Of a DNA stretch of 64,000 nucleotides, positions 34,768-60,646 are shown piece after piece (position 1 is the first letter of the stretch; every line of letters begins with the position of its first letter). The notes below the pieces were generated by a model. The model did not search any database and had not been told where the DNA came from. It saw only the letters and a program-made list of their open reading frames with translations. The translations under genes were made by a program, and so were the position numbers. The DNA is from Pedobacter sp. KBW06 (lineage in GTDB: Bacteria; Bacteroidota; Bacteroidia; Sphingobacteriales; Sphingobacteriaceae), in contig NZ_QAJL01000005.1 of assembly GCF_003852525.1 (NCBI RefSeq), positions 408,853 to 472,852 of the forward strand, in the 5' to 3' direction.

Positions 34768-34860
34768 ATGAAACCCAAATTTAAAATATATTCAGTTCTG
34801 CTGTTGATTCTCGTAATTTTGATGATGATCTCGTTTAAAACTATAATTCAGAAATTCTAA
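34768..34860 (+). CDS. 30-residue single-span membrane peptide in the efflux operon
   Basis: ATG 34768 opens a 30-codon ORF five bases after the stop of the pump gene. Its TAA (34858-34860) shares its last A with the ATG of the kinase gene (TAATG), a typical translational-coupling junction. The peptide has a basic start (MKPKFK), one hydrophobic helix (about residues 8-22, SVLLLILVILMMI) and a basic tail. Small one-span proteins such as AcrZ bind RND pumps in other bacteria; a similar role here is inference from position. I do not recognise a family. Confidence 0.6.
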   Translation: MKPKFKIYSVLLLILVILMMISFKTIIQKF

Positions 34861-35915
34861 TGCAAAAACTAACCTACCGGCTGTTCAGATTTTACGGTTA
34901 TCCTTTTCTAACGGTGGTCATTTACTTATTGTTTTTTTTCATGACCAGCGAGGATCATATGAAATCTTATGCTGAGTATACCCTTTACGATTATTGTCTC
35001 GAGATATCTTACCTGAGTTATTTTGTGGTGGTGACTATAGAGTCGGCGATCTTGATTACAGCGACACTAAATCAGTTTCTGCCCTGGGAGAAATCACCAA
35101 TAAACCGTTTTCTTTTACAGCTGATCATTCAGATTGTTTTGCTGACGGTGATGTTTTATGGCACATCGATGTTGATCCAGGCAGTTTCCCTCAGTGCTTT
35201 TCAATTCCTGACGGATTTACTGATTCGGCAAGCCCTTGTGCTTGGTGTACTCATTTCCCTGCTGAGTACCGCTGCCTTTACCATAGATTATTTTTTACAC
35301 AAATGGACGGATGCGGAACTGGAGGCGATCAGGTTGAAACAATCGGTTACACAGGCACAGCTGGATGCCTTAAAAGCACAAATTGACCCTCATTTTCTTT
35401 TCAATAACTTCAGCACGCTGACTGCTTTAATTGAGGAAGATAAAGACATCGCCGTAAAATTCCTTCAACAGCTTTCTTCCGTATACCGGTACTTATTGGC
35501 CAACCGGAGCCAGAGTGTCATCTCACTTAAAGAAGAACTGGCTTTTATCAGGTCTTATTTTTTTCTGTATGAAATGCGTTATGGCGACAGTATCGCCCTG
35601 CTGATTGACATTCCTGAGGCCATGTATGCTTCCGGCATTGCTCCCATCACCCTGCAGCTGCTGATTGAAAATGCCATTAAGCATAATGTGGTCAGTGCAG
35701 CCGAACCCTTGCATATCCGGATCTATGGCGCCGGGGAATACCTTTTCGTAGAGAACAACATTAACCTGAAAACTCATGTGGAGCTCAGCTCTAAGATGGG
35801 CCTCAAAAATATTGAAGAACGTTACCATTTGCTATCGGACCACATTCCTGTGATTGTTCAGAGTCCGGAGACCTTTCAAATAAAAATCCCTTTGTTGCCG
35901 TATGACCATAAATAG
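34860..35915 (+). CDS. LytS/YehU-type sensor histidine kinase
   Basis: A 351-residue kinase with four hydrophobic segments (about 13-28, 45-70, 83-112 and 121-145) and a cytoplasmic His_kinase domain. The phosphoacceptor lies in LKAQIDPHFLFNNFSTLTALIEE, with the N box in LLIENAIKHN. There is no large extracellular sensor. It forms a pair with the LytTR regulator whose start lies 14 bp before its stop. Placement directly after the pump suggests it senses membrane or envelope stress, or the pump's substrate, and controls this operon. Confidence 0.88.
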   Translation: MQKLTYRLFRFYGYPFLTVVIYLLFFFMTSEDHMKSYAEYTLYDYCLEISYLSYFVVVTIESAILITATLNQFLPWEKSPINRFLLQLIIQIVLLTVMFYGTSMLIQAVSLSAFQFLTDLLIRQALVLGVLISLLSTAAFTIDYFLHKWTDAELEAIRLKQSVTQAQLDALKAQIDPHFLFNNFSTLTALIEEDKDIAVKFLQQLSSVYRYLLANRSQSVISLKEELAFIRSYFFLYEMRYGDSIALLIDIPEAMYASGIAPITLQLLIENAIKHNVVSAAEPLHIRIYGAGEYLFVENNINLKTHVELSSKMGLKNIEERYHLLSDHIPVIVQSPETFQIKIPLLPYDHK

Positions 35916-36663
35916 TTTAATTATAGAAGATGAATTGCCCAATGCCCGGCGTTTGGAAAAACTCCTCAATGAATCGGCTTATCCTGTTCAGATTGTCGGG
36001 CGGTTACAAACGGTTAAAGAGGCCATTGCCTGGTTTAAAAGTAACCCTGCTCCTTCCCTGATTTTTATGGACATCAGGCTAAGTGATGGGCTCAGTTTTG
36101 AAATTTACAAGAATGTGGAACTGGAAGCACCTGTGATCTTTACGACGGCTTACGATGAGTACGCTTTGCAGGCTTTTAAGGTAAACAGTGTGGATTATCT
36201 GTTAAAGCCTATCGATAAGACGGCATTGGAACAGGCGCTTGAAAAATTCAGCAAGCAACAGCGTAAGCCGGATTATCAGTCCATGGTACAATTGTTTGGT
36301 CAGATTCAATCTCAGCAGGTGATTTACAGGTCCCGCTTCCTGCTGACGTTCAGAGATCAGCTGATCTCTATGCCGGTGGAAGAGATTGCTTATTTTGGCT
36401 CTGCTTTTAAAACGACCTTTCTTGTGAGCCATAAGGGTGAAAAACATTATATCAGTCAGACACTGGAAGAAGTGGAAAGGGAATTAAACCCTGCGTTGTT
36501 TTTCAGGGTGACCAGACAATTCCTGGTCTGCACCCTGGCGGTAGCCAAGATTCATGTGTTTTTTAACGGAAAGCTCAAATTGGAATTACTGCCTGCTGCG
36601 GAAGAGGAAGTTGTGCTGAGCAGGGACAAATCTATCGCCTTTAAAGAATGGCTGGACAAATAA
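35902..36663 (+). CDS. LytTR-family response regulator
   Basis: A 253-residue regulator: receiver domain (1-120) with IEDE acidic pocket, phosphoacceptor Asp in LIFMDIRLSDG and the Lys of LLKPID, then a C-terminal LytTR DNA-binding domain (about 145-250) with SRFLLTFRDQLISMPVEEIAYF and FFRVTRQFLVCTLAVAKIHVFFNGKLKLEL. It is coupled to the kinase gene by a 14-bp overlap. LytTR proteins bind direct repeats spaced about two helical turns apart. The likely target is the efflux operon itself. Confidence 0.9.
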   Translation: MTINSLIIEDELPNARRLEKLLNESAYPVQIVGRLQTVKEAIAWFKSNPAPSLIFMDIRLSDGLSFEIYKNVELEAPVIFTTAYDEYALQAFKVNSVDYLLKPIDKTALEQALEKFSKQQRKPDYQSMVQLFGQIQSQQVIYRSRFLLTFRDQLISMPVEEIAYFGSAFKTTFLVSHKGEKHYISQTLEEVERELNPALFFRVTRQFLVCTLAVAKIHVFFNGKLKLELLPAAEEEVVLSRDKSIAFKEWLDK

Positions 36664-55142: not shown

Positions 55143-55292
55143 GAAAAATTAACCTTCAAAATCCGTTAAAATCATCCATAACTAGGTGTAAACGCAATAA
55201 ATCCTTGACTTCTGCATAGAAAATTATAGTTTTATCCCTGAATTTGATTTAACTTTACACATTCTTAATAAAATTCATGAAATAATAAAAAG

Positions 55293-55325
55293 TATTACGC
55301 CAAGGACCTGTTTTGCGTTGTGAAT
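55293..55325. promoter_or_regulatory. 21-bp-phased direct repeat upstream of the LytTR gene
   Basis: TATTACGCCAAG (55293-55304) and TGCGTTGTGAAT (55314-55325) are 21 bp apart and resemble the other phased pairs of this locus. The pair ends 49 bp before the regulator's start, suggesting self-regulation. Confidence 0.5.
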
Positions 55326-55374: not shown

Positions 55375-56121
55375 ATGGACAAGAAATTAAACTGCGTAAT
55401 TATTGACGATGAGAAACACGCTGTAGAACTCCTGGTAGATTACATCAATACGATGCCCAACCTGCAGCTTGTAAAATACTTTACAAATCCTTTGCAGGCT
55501 TTGATGGAAATTTCGGCCAATGACCAGATTGATATTGTTTTCATGGATATGGATATGCCGGGGATGTCAGGAATAGATCTTTCAATTGCCATTAGAGACA
55601 AGACAAAGTACCTGGTGGTTACTACAGGGCATTCGAAGTATGCTTATGAAGCGTTTGGTGTACAGGCAAATGAATATTTGCTGAAGCCGATTTCCATGAG
55701 CAAATTCGCTTTGATGATCAAAAGGCTCCTGAATTCGGAGCTGGCTGTAAAAAATGTGGTTGCAGCAGATGATTTCTTTTTTATCAAGACTGATCAGGTG
55801 CAGAAATATACAAAAATCAATATCAGAGACATCATCATGATTGAGGGCTTAAACAATTATGTGAAGATACATACAGTGAATGAGACGCATGTCGCTTATC
55901 TGACGATGAAGGAGCTGGAAACGAAGCTGCAGGACAATCCGAACTTTGTCAGGGTACAAAGGTCTTTTATCGTATCTATGAATTACATCACTAAAGTGGA
56001 AGGATATACGATTATTCTGAGCAATAAAATGGAGGTGCCATTGGGGACGACTTATAAAAAGCAGTTTTTAGTCTTTCTGGGAGAAAAAACAATGAAATCC
56101 AAGCGGAATGTACCCGATTAG
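55375..56121 (+). CDS. LytTR-family response regulator of the peptide locus
   Basis: A 248-residue regulator. The receiver domain (1-120) has IDDEKHAVELLVDYI, the phosphoacceptor in IVFMDMDMPGMSG and the Lys of LLKPIS. The LytTR domain (about 130-235) has FFFIKTDQVQKYTKINIRDIIMIEGLNNYVKIHT and FVRVQRSFIVSMNYITKVEGYTIILSNKMEVPLG. The kinase gene downstream is separated from it by the precursor ORF on the other strand. I propose that it binds the phased repeats around it and at lanB. Confidence 0.9.
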   Translation: MDKKLNCVIIDDEKHAVELLVDYINTMPNLQLVKYFTNPLQALMEISANDQIDIVFMDMDMPGMSGIDLSIAIRDKTKYLVVTTGHSKYAYEAFGVQANEYLLKPISMSKFALMIKRLLNSELAVKNVVAADDFFFIKTDQVQKYTKINIRDIIMIEGLNNYVKIHTVNETHVAYLTMKELETKLQDNPNFVRVQRSFIVSMNYITKVEGYTIILSNKMEVPLGTTYKKQFLVFLGEKTMKSKRNVPD

Positions 56122-56143
56122 ATTTCATTGCCTTAAACACTTT

Positions 56144-56314
56144 CTAGTGTGCTCCATATCCAACTATACCACTGGTATGCGATGTTGCACTGGTATTGGT
56201 CGGATCTGTATACGTTTTAAAAGTATCAGTATAGTAAGCTGATTTACCTTTTTTTGATTTGAACACAAATAATGTGCTTTTCTTTAGATTGATTGCTGTT
56301 AGTTCCTTTTTCAT
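56144..56314 (-). CDS. Lanthipeptide-like precursor peptide, cysteine-free
   Basis: A 56-codon ORF runs from ATG 56314 to TAG 56144, filling the gap between the regulator and kinase genes on the opposite strand. The N-terminal part has the leader style of Bacteroidota class I precursors (KKELTAINLKKSTLFVF, a helix with the L-x-L-K-K-x-T-L pattern) and a Lys/Gly-rich hinge (SKKGKS, 20-25). Residues 29-48 hold eight Thr and three Ser in twenty positions; the tail is SGIVGYGAH. There is no Cys anywhere, so thioether rings cannot form. A LanB-type dehydratase is encoded 1.15 kb away, and both upstream regions carry the same phased repeats. The precursor role is inference from leader style, composition and context. 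Confidence 0.65.
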   Translation of the reverse strand: MKKELTAINLKKSTLFVFKSKKGKSAYYTDTFKTYTDPTNTSATSHTSGIVGYGAH

Positions 56315-56363
56315 GTTCTTTTTTTTGAGGAAAATTAAGCAGGATCGCAGGCCCCGGGAAAAG

Positions 56364-56396
56364 TATTACGTTAACACTGGCTTCTTTTACACGAAA
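56364..56396. promoter_or_regulatory. 21-bp-phased direct repeat between precursor and kinase genes
   Basis: TATTACGTTAAC (56364-56375) and TTTTACACGAAA (56385-56396) are 21 bp apart and end at the kinase start codon. The first unit is 50 bp upstream of the precursor start. The spacing and sequence match the pair upstream of lanB. Confidence 0.55.
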
Positions 56397-57490
56397 TGAA
56401 AATAACACCTGATAATTTCAAAGACTTTTTATACCGTTACCGGATCCATTTTATAGGCTGGTTCCTCTTTATATTCTATGAAGTGGTGATTATGGGCGTG
56501 ATCCGCGGGGTCTTTGCGACGTTTGGAAACTATGCACTTTTTTATACGTTTAACATCAGTTTGTTTTACTTTCATGCCCTTGTGGTGATGCCTGCGGCAA
56601 AAATGAAAAGTATTCAGGCACTTTGGAGGCTGCCTTTGTTCATTTCGCTGGAAGTGATCCTGTATATTCCGCTTGTTCTTCATACCGCTGATTTCTTCAA
56701 CCGTTATGGTACGCTGGAGCTTATTGAACCGATCCAGTTTACCTTTAGGGCACATACCAATGTGGCTTACCGTGCCATTTATTTCATTTTGTTTGCCACG
56801 GGCTACGATTATATCCTCAATTACTTCAAGGAAAGAAAACGGGCAGAAGAACAGGAGAAAGAGCGCTTGCTGGTGATCATTGAAAACCAAAGGATTTATT
56901 CTGATCTGATTAAGTCGCAGCATGCCCACCTGAAAGCGCAAATCAATCCTCATTTCCTGTTTAATACCTTAAATTTCATTTATACGAATACAAGAAAAAC
57001 TGCTCCTGAGGCCGCAGAAGCGATTATGGCATTGTCAGAAATGATGAGGTATTCTATTGAAGAGGTGAAGGATCATGCGCAATCCGCCTTGTCCGGAGAA
57101 TTGGAACAGGTAGAAAACCTGATCAAGCTTCATCAGATTAAGGCAGGTCATGGTTTACATATTTCCCTGAATTACACTGAAGATGTGGAATACATTCAGA
57201 TCATTCCCCTACTCATTATGACCCTCGTGGAAAATATGTTCAAACATGGGGAACTCAGGCAGGCCGCCCATCCTGCAAGCATTGACATCAGTTGTTCCGG
57301 TGGATTGCTGCAGGTCAGTACGAGAAATCTGATTAGCCTGCAGCCTGCACATAGCAGTCACCATATAGGCCTCAGCAACGTAAAGAAGCGGCTGAAGTCT
57401 GCTTATGGGAACAAAGCCGCACTTCATACTGCCGTTACTGAGGACCATTATTTTGAGGCCACTTTATCGATCGAGCTTAACCAGGTGTAG
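56396..57490 (+). CDS. LytS/YehU-type sensor histidine kinase of the peptide locus
   Basis: A 364-residue kinase with four hydrophobic segments (about 14-36, 44-65, 76-100 and 120-138), then a cytoplasmic coil (YFKERKRAEEQEKERLLVIIENQ) and a His_kinase domain with the phosphoacceptor in LKAQINPHFLFNTLNFIYTNTRK and the ATPase motif LLIMTLVENMFKHGEL, then GLSNVKKRLKSAYG. It pairs with the LytTR regulator upstream. The 3' end overlaps lanB tail-to-tail by 27 bp. It may sense the mature peptide, which would make the system autoinducing. Confidence 0.88.
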   Translation: MKITPDNFKDFLYRYRIHFIGWFLFIFYEVVIMGVIRGVFATFGNYALFYTFNISLFYFHALVVMPAAKMKSIQALWRLPLFISLEVILYIPLVLHTADFFNRYGTLELIEPIQFTFRAHTNVAYRAIYFILFATGYDYILNYFKERKRAEEQEKERLLVIIENQRIYSDLIKSQHAHLKAQINPHFLFNTLNFIYTNTRKTAPEAAEAIMALSEMMRYSIEEVKDHAQSALSGELEQVENLIKLHQIKAGHGLHISLNYTEDVEYIQIIPLLIMTLVENMFKHGELRQAAHPASIDISCSGGLLQVSTRNLISLQPAHSSHHIGLSNVKKRLKSAYGNKAALHTAVTEDHYFEATLSIELNQV

Positions 57491-60268
57491 ATTTTGCTTT
57501 TCGAGCTGCAATATTTTATGGAGGAAGCTGTAAATGATCGTTTCATGGGCCCTTGGCTCCGTGGCGAACAACCTGTTGATGTGCATGTGAAAAAGACTGC
57601 AAAACAGGGACCTCCGGTTTTCGGGCGTGCTTTCCGCTAAAGTATGGTTAAAGGAACGGATCAGCTCGTTGGGGATGGCATGAAGTACATGATCCAGGCT
57701 TCCAAAGGGATATTCTTCCAGGAAAAGGCCCCACTCCCTGTTTACCTTTTTGAACTCCCTGCTGGTCATGCCGTGTTCTTCCTCAAATGATTGCTGAACA
57801 TTTCGGATAAATACCGCCTGTTCTCCCTGGTTCAGCTCAAGTGTCCCCAGTACTGCTTTCATCAATGCCGTACAATTTGCATATTTAGTAAACAGATCCG
57901 GATTGCTATCCAGAAGACTTAAAGCATAATTGCTGTCGGCCGTAAAATGATGCTCTGTCAGCGCCATCTGCGCCGCGCCGTAACGTTCTGTTTCCCGGTG
58001 ATAGGTCTTCAGCTGAACGTCTGTAATGATCCCATCCGACAAGTCCTCTGCCAGTATTTCCATTAACCTGCTGATGTAAAAATATCCTTCTTCTTCCCGG
58101 TTCAGCTGCAGCCTTAACCTGAGGTGCGGAGCCGGATCATTGTACCGGATAAAGAACCAGGTTTTAAAATTCCCGGAATACCTTTCTATGAATTTTCCGA
58201 TCAGCGAAGTAAGGAGGAAGTCTGTCCGTTCCTCATGACAGTAAATCTCAAAATAGAGCCAGTCTTTCCCCGGAACGATGACCCGTTCGACGTCCTTATG
58301 TGCTGCTTTTTTTAGCGGCGTATGTCCGGAATACAATAATTCGCCGTGATTTAGCGTGAGGAGAATCTGACTGAAGTAATTCTTTCCAGATTCATCTCTA
58401 AATACTTGATTACTAGCAATAATACATTCACTTATAACGAAATCGTTGTATTGTTTCAGGTAGGATTTAAAGTGAAAAAGATCGGTTTCATTCTCTTTAT
58501 CGAAGCATAGAGTCTGGTCTCCGTTTCCTGCAGAGAAGTACCGGCCTACCCCCATTTTATCCAGCAGGGAAAGGACTGGCTCCTGCCCCAGATCAGAGGC
58601 TTTGATCCTCCATTTTGCCGGGGATAAAACCAGGTTTTTGTATTGGACCCTGGGGTAAAAATCCAGGCCGGGTAAGAGCGACTGGATGTCAAACAAGATC
58701 TGAGTCCGGACTCGCTGATGTTGCAAATCACATAGAAAGCGATAAACGGACAGGTCAGACCGGCTGTAGTTATAAGCAGAAGCGAGCCTTGGGACCAGTC
58801 TTTTCCCATATTGTGCGGAGAGCAGGATGATTTCTCCGTTTTTTACCGTAACCAGGAGGTCATTTAAAGAGATGGGCTGCCCGCTGCAGGAGTAATTTAG
58901 AATGGGAAGTTCGTGGTCATAAATCCCCTTTCTTCGGTTTATATTGTCGACTTTTCCTTCAGCCATGTATGCCAGATCGAAGAAAATCACCTCCGGATTG
59001 GCTGCTGATTCTGCGGCCGCAATCTGTTTACAATGTGATTCTACCGCCTCGCTGGCCATGGTAAACCTGCCGGCCAGCGCATTAGCAGTGCAGCCGCCCA
59101 CTTGTTCCAGTACCACCAGATCATCCGCAAATCTTGCTAAAGCGCTAAAGCTGTTCGCCGGCTTTATCTTGCTGTCTGACTGTTGGTTGTTTTCTATATT
59201 TTCCAGTTTAATGACTTGTTTTCCATCTCCCCTGAGCATCTCTTTGAGCAAAGTCCAGGCAAAGGCTCCCGGATGAGCTGCTGCCGGTGCAGCATTGCCA
59301 ATGGCATCCCTCAGTTCATGCGCTAAATCTGTTGCGGCAGCAGCGCCGGCAAGGTCTCCGTAACCAATTCCCAGCTCCGGATCAAGGACCATCATTAAAG
59401 GCAATTCCTGAGATTCAAAGCGTCTTTGGAATTCGCTGGAAAAGGACTTAAGTCCCTGGTTTTCTTGTGCTGAGCTGATCGATGTTAAATGGTCTATACA
59501 TGCAGGTAAGTGCGCTAAAGCGGCTTTACCGACCCCACCCGAACACACCTTACGCTCCGCGATGAGGTATTGCTCTTCTGTGTCGTTGAGGGCTTGCCCG
59601 CTCCGTCCAAAGTAATCCGGTCCGATGATATTGGGGTTGAGGTCTGTGAAAAGCAGTTGTAAATCAAGCATCGCCCTGAGAATTCCTGTCAGTACTTCTT
59701 CGGAGACGGCACGGTCAGCAGCGAAATCACATATGGCGGCATACCTTGCTTTCTTACTGCAGAAATCCAGCAATTCTGTGATGAACGTGCTTTTTTCGAT
59801 TTCAGCCAGTTCAAACACCTGTTCCTGCAGGGAAATGAAGCGGATGTTCCTGGAGGTTGAATAAGTACTTGAATTTGAGAAATAGAGGCGATCTGAGGAG
59901 GTTAAGTCCTCGTTTGATATCTGAAGGTCATTGCGGTAAGACCAGTCTTTAAAACGGTGCAAATGCTGCTTACGGGAAAAGACAACTTCCGTTGTTCCGG
60001 CTGTTAATTCCGCGACTGCAAAACCGGCAAAGCTGCCATATGGTGTTCCCCGGTATTTGGAGCGGTTGAAATACTTCCATATCGTAAACTGTATTTTCGG
60101 ATCTAAATCCGTCAGTTCATGGGCTTTAACTGTTTTAATTTTATCGTAGAAGGCACTGGAAGAAAAGCTGATAGCTATTTTTAGCTCTTCCCATACTTCA
60201 ACTAACTGATCTGTAATGGAGAATGCCGGGATTCTTAAAAGAACGACAGGGCTGATGGTTGTTTTCAT
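57464..60268 (-). CDS. LanB-type lantibiotic dehydratase, full length
   Basis: A 934-residue protein with both parts of a class I dehydratase. Residues 1 to about 640 are the glutamylation part, opening ISPVVLLRIPAFSI and containing KYFNRSKYRGTPYGSFAGFAVAEL (the R-x-TPFG-like signature of LanB N-termini) and NRRKGIYDHELPI. Residues about 660-930 are the SpaB-C-type elimination domain (DWLYFEIYCHEERTDFLLTSLIGKFIE, WFFIRYNDPAPHLRLRLQL). Such enzymes add glutamate from Glu-tRNA to Ser/Thr side chains and eliminate it, giving dehydroalanine and dehydrobutyrine. No LanC cyclase, protease or peptide exporter is found in the window. Its 3' end overlaps the kinase gene by 27 bp. Confidence 0.9.
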   Translation of the reverse strand: MKTTISPVVLLRIPAFSITDQLVEVWEELKIAISFSSSAFYDKIKTVKAHELTDLDPKIQFTIWKYFNRSKYRGTPYGSFAGFAVAELTAGTTEVVFSRKQHLHRFKDWSYRNDLQISNEDLTSSDRLYFSNSSTYSTSRNIRFISLQEQVFELAEIEKSTFITELLDFCSKKARYAAICDFAADRAVSEEVLTGILRAMLDLQLLFTDLNPNIIGPDYFGRSGQALNDTEEQYLIAERKVCSGGVGKAALAHLPACIDHLTSISSAQENQGLKSFSSEFQRRFESQELPLMMVLDPELGIGYGDLAGAAAATDLAHELRDAIGNAAPAAAHPGAFAWTLLKEMLRGDGKQVIKLENIENNQQSDSKIKPANSFSALARFADDLVVLEQVGGCTANALAGRFTMASEAVESHCKQIAAAESAANPEVIFFDLAYMAEGKVDNINRRKGIYDHELPILNYSCSGQPISLNDLLVTVKNGEIILLSAQYGKRLVPRLASAYNYSRSDLSVYRFLCDLQHQRVRTQILFDIQSLLPGLDFYPRVQYKNLVLSPAKWRIKASDLGQEPVLSLLDKMGVGRYFSAGNGDQTLCFDKENETDLFHFKSYLKQYNDFVISECIIASNQVFRDESGKNYFSQILLTLNHGELLYSGHTPLKKAAHKDVERVIVPGKDWLYFEIYCHEERTDFLLTSLIGKFIERYSGNFKTWFFIRYNDPAPHLRLRLQLNREEEGYFYISRLMEILAEDLSDGIITDVQLKTYHRETERYGAAQMALTEHHFTADSNYALSLLDSNPDLFTKYANCTALMKAVLGTLELNQGEQAVFIRNVQQSFEEEHGMTSREFKKVNREWGLFLEEYPFGSLDHVLHAIPNELIRSFNHTLAESTPENRRSLFCSLFHMHINRLFATEPRAHETIIYSFLHKILQLEKQNLHLVKLDR

Positions 60269-60646
60269 ACTTACAAATTCCTATAGAATACCAGGAGGAA
60301 CAAAATCTATTACGCAAACGAGCTGATCTATTACGTGAATTTTTCAGCTGTTTTAAACCTTTTGCCCTTATTTGAGTCCTTATAGCAGCCCGCAAAGGTA
60401 AAGCGGATGAAAGCTACTGATGAAAGCAGAAAAAAAACATCATAATTATTAACAGGGACATCGGTTCCGGCAATTTGCCATGACGATAATACACTATTAA
60501 GATAGTTAAGTCATAAAAAAGTAATAGCCTACTAAATTTCAATCTAAACATCAATTAATCAATATATTAGCGTTTAAACATCAGGCCTATAGCATAAAAA
60601 TACATAACTAACAATTCAATTATTCATAGCACTAAACCCAAATTCT
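60269..60646. other. 378-bp divergent region between lanB and the L,D-transpeptidase
   Basis: The half nearest lanB holds the phased repeat pair (60308-60340). The rest (60345-60646) is AT-rich with no ORF over 12 codons that looks real, no tRNA and no clear terminator. It should contain the promoters of both genes. Confidence 0.6.
60308..60340. promoter_or_regulatory. 21-bp-phased direct repeat upstream of lanB
   Basis: TATTACGCAAAC (60308-60319) and TATTACGTGAAT (60329-60340) share their first seven bases and stand 21 bp apart. The first unit is 40 bp upstream of the lanB start. This is the cleanest pair of the locus. Confidence 0.6.

Follow-up and report, generated by a model that had tools for sequence, protein, structure and literature searches.

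The window, that is, the whole 64,000-nucleotide stretch of the Pedobacter sp. KBW06 genome that was analysed, contains at positions 55375–60268 a module of four genes encoding a LytTR regulator, a 56-aa peptide, a histidine kinase, and a LanB dehydratase. The LytTR-type response regulator (RR; 55375..56121, plus strand, 248 aa) carries domains PF00072 and PF04397 and is a neighbour kept in every module, and the sensor histidine kinase (HK; 56396..57490, plus strand, 364 aa) is of the PF06580 type. Between them, antisense to both and on the same strand as the LanB gene, lies the peptide ORF (56144..56314, minus strand). The LanB gene (57464..60268, minus strand) is arranged tail-to-tail with the kinase gene, with a 27-bp overlap. 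An earlier reading of this DNA, made from the sequence alone (hereafter the sequence-only reading), had noted a two-component system; its presence was borne out by the domains of both proteins, but it is not a mere extra of the locus, since no other partner of the peptide is as strongly conserved. As that reading had also stated, no LanC, exporter, or protease gene lies within 55.2–60.3 kb of the window. A second pair of a kinase and a LytTR-like regulator, weakly similar to the HK and RR of the module, is located at 34860–36663 of the window, and no precursor-like ORF was found beside it.

The LanB protein (934 aa) is full-length, as had been claimed, with matches to both Lant_dehydr_N (PF04738, 1.7e-67) and Lant_dehydr_C (PF14028, 3.7e-53). 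Its best sequence relative in the PDB is NisB (1.5e-25), and the best structural matches of its AlphaFold model (m1b0f13bb1e39, pLDDT 84.8) are MadB, NisB, and MibB. The NisB residues R83, R87, and R464, which are known to function in glutamylation, align with R69, R73, and R401, and the elimination residues R784, R786, E823, R826, and H961 align with R717, R719, E759, R762, and H894; each mapped catalytic residue is kept in 43–45 of 45 aligned LanBs. The elimination domain PF14028, present with its mapped residues, distinguishes the protein from PEARL and glutamylation-only LanB-like ligases. With both domains present and the NisB residues intact in the alignment, the enzyme looks catalytically competent.

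The peptide ORF encodes the sequence MKKELTAINLKKSTLFVFKSKKGKSAYYTDTFKTYTDPTNTSATSHTSGIVGYGAH (56 aa), which has 11 Thr/Ser in residues 29–48 and no Cys at all, just as the sequence-only reading described it, and which matches no Pfam or NCBIfam family. The "class I-like leader" of that reading was retained only as a loose likeness: the motif K-K-x-T-x-F-V-F-K (LKKSTLFVFKS in the window peptide) resembles the LxLxKx5L leader of Bacteroidetes (PMC7268733), but the FxLD box is absent, no leader model in Pfam or NCBIfam fits, and NF038153 (class I lanthipeptide leader L1a) matched neither the window peptide nor the scanned homologues. Conservation beyond this genome is clear, since a search of 145 Pedobacter genomes revealed precursor matches in 31 (KBW06 and 30 others), with 58–96% identity in nine relatives. 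A median dN/dS of 0.14 among homologues (77 pairs of equal length) indicates purifying selection. The homologues, the synteny described below, and the dN/dS value of about 0.14 establish that this is not a chance ORF.

The gene order RR–precursor(s)–HK–LanB is common to nearly all relatives of this LanB, at LanB identities of 33–87%, and was found in P. steynii, P. caeni, P. soli, P. kyungheensis, and others; unlike this order, the flanking genes vary between distant species. The same order was seen in about 80 further LanB or precursor loci from other genomes, and the whole sample comprised 90 distinct RR–HK modules, 75 of them with an adjacent LanB. Between RR and HK, nearly all of the 90 modules carry an antisense precursor gene, in 1 to 7 tandem copies in the sampled modules; the first precursor pattern missed modules with early in-frame ATGs or leader variants, in which reading of the gaps revealed precursors. 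Homologues of the 56-residue ORF thus occupy the same position in nearly every LanB relative inspected. The module occurs mostly in Pedobacter, with representatives in other genera of Sphingobacteriaceae, and the full-length LanB subfamily was detected in 102 of 145 Pedobacter genomes (E ≤ 1e-120).

About 15 RR–precursor–HK modules have no adjacent LanB, and all 14 of their host genomes encode a LanB of the subfamily elsewhere. Therefore, in these cases either LanB would act in trans or the peptide would stay unmodified, and one LanB may serve several peptide–receptor pairs. Such satellite modules were observed in L064–L067, L069, L071–L074, and L076–L083, two of them within 16 kb in L074, and some of their precursors are very Thr-rich (SDPTTTTLTLGTTG). 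In a related subtype, HK and RR form an operon adjoining LanB (L141, L142, L051, L213, and L227–L230); L141 and L230 contain small Ser/Thr-rich ORFs upstream of HK.

The lack of Cys is kept in the homologues, with 139 of 146 distinct precursors being Cys-free and just 7 containing Cys. No LanC was found anywhere in 35 of the 71 module-bearing Pedobacter genomes for which the module was read, and 55 of the 102 Pedobacter genomes with the full-length LanB subfamily (E ≤ 1e-120) lack a LanC domain. The combination of a LanB with a Cys-free precursor and no LanC, proposed earlier for this one locus, is thus a conserved trait of a gene family. Besides the LanB of the module, the KBW06 genome encodes four LanBs and four clear LanCs. 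The LanCs are all located near three of those LanBs, at distances of at most about 10 kb, and the remaining LanB (C11) has no LanC nearby. A Cys-containing partner with a LanC elsewhere was rejected for the LanB of the module, because the LanCs of this genome adjoin different LanBs and LanC is missing from half of the module genomes. Since so few peptides contain Cys and so many genomes lack LanC, the module does not in general yield lanthionines, and, as judged from these genomes, LanC ring formation is not part of the general action of the module; having neither Cys nor LanC, the system is by definition not a class I lanthipeptide. The second LanC-less LanB (L085 5416–11234, G000 C11; 1053 aa) is accompanied by an HK–RR operon and by a Cys-containing small ORF (MKKLNKTTKILNLKKATVSNL...) with a weak match to NF038153 (E 0.08, below the cut-off). 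The rare Cys-bearing precursors of the family (L062, L058, L059, L079, L080, and L138) offer natural tests of ring formation.

The module has no linked gene for an exporter or a leader protease. C39 peptidases are encoded in 127 of 145 genomes of the genus; a C39 exporter as the universal partner was ruled out by four module genomes (G026, G048, G081, and G116) without any C39 peptidase, so another export route is needed at least there. Two satellite modules, in L069 and L081, adjoin a gene for a C39-like/VKOR/thioredoxin protein, and the one in L069 also a C39-like transporter ORF (L069 8953–10533 and 13706–15919; L081 4514–6094); these genes are possible export machinery.

Upstream of the precursor gene, and again upstream of the LanB gene, there is a common direct repeat whose period is 21 bp. 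The putative operator TGTAAAA-N14-CGTAATA (56364..56391, minus strand) lies in the divergent precursor/kinase promoter region, and CGTAATA-N14-CGTAATA (60308..60335, minus strand) lies 40–67 bp upstream of LanB; a candidate degenerate operator located 5' of the regulator gene (55272..55299, minus strand) has one good half-site, CGTAATA, and a weak other half. LytTR operators usually consist of two half-sites two helical turns apart, and the repeat, being LytTR-like in layout, is a putative operator. It is recognisable in 11 related species, although in places degenerate (at LanB sometimes). Exact copies of YGTAAWA-N14-YGTAATA number three in the 8.1-Mb genome, two of them being the precursor and LanB sites; the third and one near match fall in coding sequence. 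In eleven relatives, the sites of the module itself recur, while other matches occur at about the level of a reversed-pattern control, and a large genome-wide regulon was therefore rejected. A row of three half-sites with 21-bp spacing (L180; G000 C1:146505-146553), which has the 14-mer TTCACGTAATAGAT in common with the LanB operator, was observed about 240 bp upstream of a lipoprotein-like ORF of 326 aa without a Pfam match (L180 8790–9770; C1:146789-147769), a possible output gene of the circuit. In a more distant clade, a conserved TTTGTGTAA block is found upstream of the precursor in 53 of 80 modules (0.35 expected) and GTAA-N17-GTAA 5' of the regulator gene in 55 of 81 (0.2 expected); the direct repeat is absent at LanB in this clade, where plain promoter-like sequence is present.

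According to the AlphaFold model (m47af0b9da69c) and hydropathy, the kinase sensor has four predicted membrane helices (about residues 16–37, 43–68, 75–103, and 117–140) followed directly by the dimerisation helix; the model predicts short loops and no periplasmic domain. For 80 modules, pairwise distances were obtained separately for six parts (precursor core, leader, kinase sensor, kinase domain, RR, and LanB) and set against each other. Within one clade of 52 modules, core and sensor distances were correlated with a rank r of 0.75; controlling for the kinase domain left a partial correlation of 0.61, and controlling for the 400 fastest LanB columns left one of 0.715. This evidence is correlational, and the permutation p-values take no account of common descent. 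Leader distances in this clade followed not those of the sensor (-0.11 given the kinase domain) but those of LanB (0.56) and of the kinase domain (0.51). Physical linkage is an unlikely cause of the core–sensor co-variation: since the leader-coding part is situated between those for the core and the sensor, linkage or gene conversion should have produced the opposite pattern. Correlational as it is, the pattern is as expected if the core were the ligand of the sensor and the leader the substrate of LanB.

We consider it probable that the Cys-free peptide, dehydrated by LanB, is a pheromone for the adjacent kinase–regulator pair and closes an autoinduction loop. We infer the action of LanB on this peptide, the linearity of the product, its export and sensing, and the direction in which the genes are regulated; the steps could run as follows. 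LanB would recognise the leader of the 56-aa precursor, glutamylate Thr/Ser residues of the core by means of Glu-tRNA, and then eliminate glutamate to give dehydrobutyrine and dehydroalanine. The product would be a mostly linear dehydrated peptide; in the proposed model no lanthionine is formed, because there is no Cys and no dedicated LanC, and a linear dehydroamino-acid product would be the simplest chemistry. Leader removal and export would be carried out by unlinked functions. The four-helix membrane kinase would then detect the core and phosphorylate the LytTR regulator, which would bind the 21-bp direct repeats before the precursor and LanB genes and raise their expression. Signalling to the adjacent two-component system is the most likely, and best-supported, role, and the persistence of this system where LanB is not adjacent also points to signalling.

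Several other explanations should be weighed. That the 56-aa ORF arose by chance or through an annotation error, next to a LanB that has no partner, would agree with its shortness and the absence of a domain match, but its conservation, synteny, tandem duplication, and dN/dS have already refuted this, and the chance of it is practically nil. The product could instead be a dehydrated antimicrobial, bacteriocin-like peptide, autoregulated as nisin and subtilin are via NisRK and SpaRK, with signalling secondary. LanB products are often antibacterial, many modules carry tandem precursor arrays, and the operator-like repeat would be autoregulatory in kind. However, no conserved immunity gene, exporter, or protease lies beside the module, occurrence in 102 of 145 Pedobacter genomes (E ≤ 1e-120) is an unusual spread for a bacteriocin, and core–sensor co-variation is predicted only if the peptide is also an inducer, making this explanation unlikely without being negligible.

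Alternatively, the peptide could act unmodified inside the cell as a direct modulator of the kinase (or its gene through an antisense transcript), LanB being a mere neighbour that serves other precursors. Such an action would account for the antisense position of the peptide gene between RR and HK, the modules without an adjacent LanB, and the lack of a linked exporter; nevertheless, LanB and the precursor have a common strand and operator-like repeat and are linked over 33–87% LanB identity, the leader co-varies with LanB, the cores are Thr/Ser-rich and nearly Cys-free, and each genome with a LanB-less module has a subfamily LanB elsewhere. A pure antisense RNA is excluded because selection acts at the protein level, as seen in dN/dS, and intracellular action as a whole appears distinctly unlikely. 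A non-linear product, in which Lys or His side chains, a trans-acting LanC, or a small thiol compound cross-link the dehydro residues, seems very improbable: 72 of 146 cores have a Lys near the end and 72 of 146 contain His, and the KBW06 genome does have LanCs elsewhere, yet half of the cores lack Lys and half lack His, each of those LanCs adjoins another LanB, and LanC is absent from 35 of 71 module genomes.

Compared with known systems, the module resembles those of nisin (NisA/NisB/NisRK) and subtilin in having a NisB-fold LanB with the mapped catalytic residues, a precursor with a leader and a Thr/Ser-rich core, and a linked kinase and regulator, but differs from them in the absence of core Cys, LanC, LanT/LanP, and immunity genes and in the antisense position of the precursor between RR and HK; the kinase is PF06580-type and the regulator LytTR-type, while the nisin regulator is OmpR-type. 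With AgrC/AgrA, ComD/ComE, and BlpH/BlpR it has in common that a gene for a small peptide is linked to those for a polytopic membrane kinase and a LytTR regulator, and that the operator (here putative) consists of direct repeats in pairs, spaced by two helical turns. Unlike these systems, it belongs to Bacteroidota, has a PF06580 kinase with four membrane helices and a presumably LanB-modified peptide, and lacks AgrB and C39/GG processing. Dehydro residues without lanthionine, inferred for the product here, are found in linaridins, goadsporin, thiopeptides, and dehydrazoles; the module, however, has no azole, pyridine, or decarboxylase enzymes, and its enzyme is a single full-length LanB. The Bacteroidetes class I lanthipeptides (pinensins, P. 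lusitanus Ped peptides, and those with LxLxKx5L/NF038153 leaders) are of the same phylum and enzyme class and have a similar L-x-K-K-x5-like leader, but they contain Cys, are accompanied by LanC, and often have GG leaders with C39 proteases (PMC7268733), while the module precursors tested do not match NF038153.

A large mining survey took LanC-domain proteins as its starting point, so that LanC-free loci fell outside it, and in a related context it left Cys-free precursors out of consideration (PMC7268733). The Pedobacter surveys consulted here contain no discussion of loci of this kind (PMC12181424, PMC10609062). Nothing matching an orphan or LanC-free LanB of this type was found in the literature searched, and a prior mention in work on P. 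lusitanus lanthipeptides is possible.

Little is known of peptide signalling in Bacteroidota, and LanB enzymes are commonly interpreted as makers of lantibiotics. As to whether peptide quorum sensing by LanB-dehydrated, Cys-free, linear pheromones containing dehydrobutyrine and dehydroalanine is widespread in this phylum, with LanB also serving satellite modules, we consider the chances to be evenly balanced. If true, this would be a RiPP and signal class not described in the literature searched, dehydration would gain a role of its own, in signalling and not in ring formation, in most Pedobacter genomes, and the core and kinase sensor would provide a testable signal–receptor pair.
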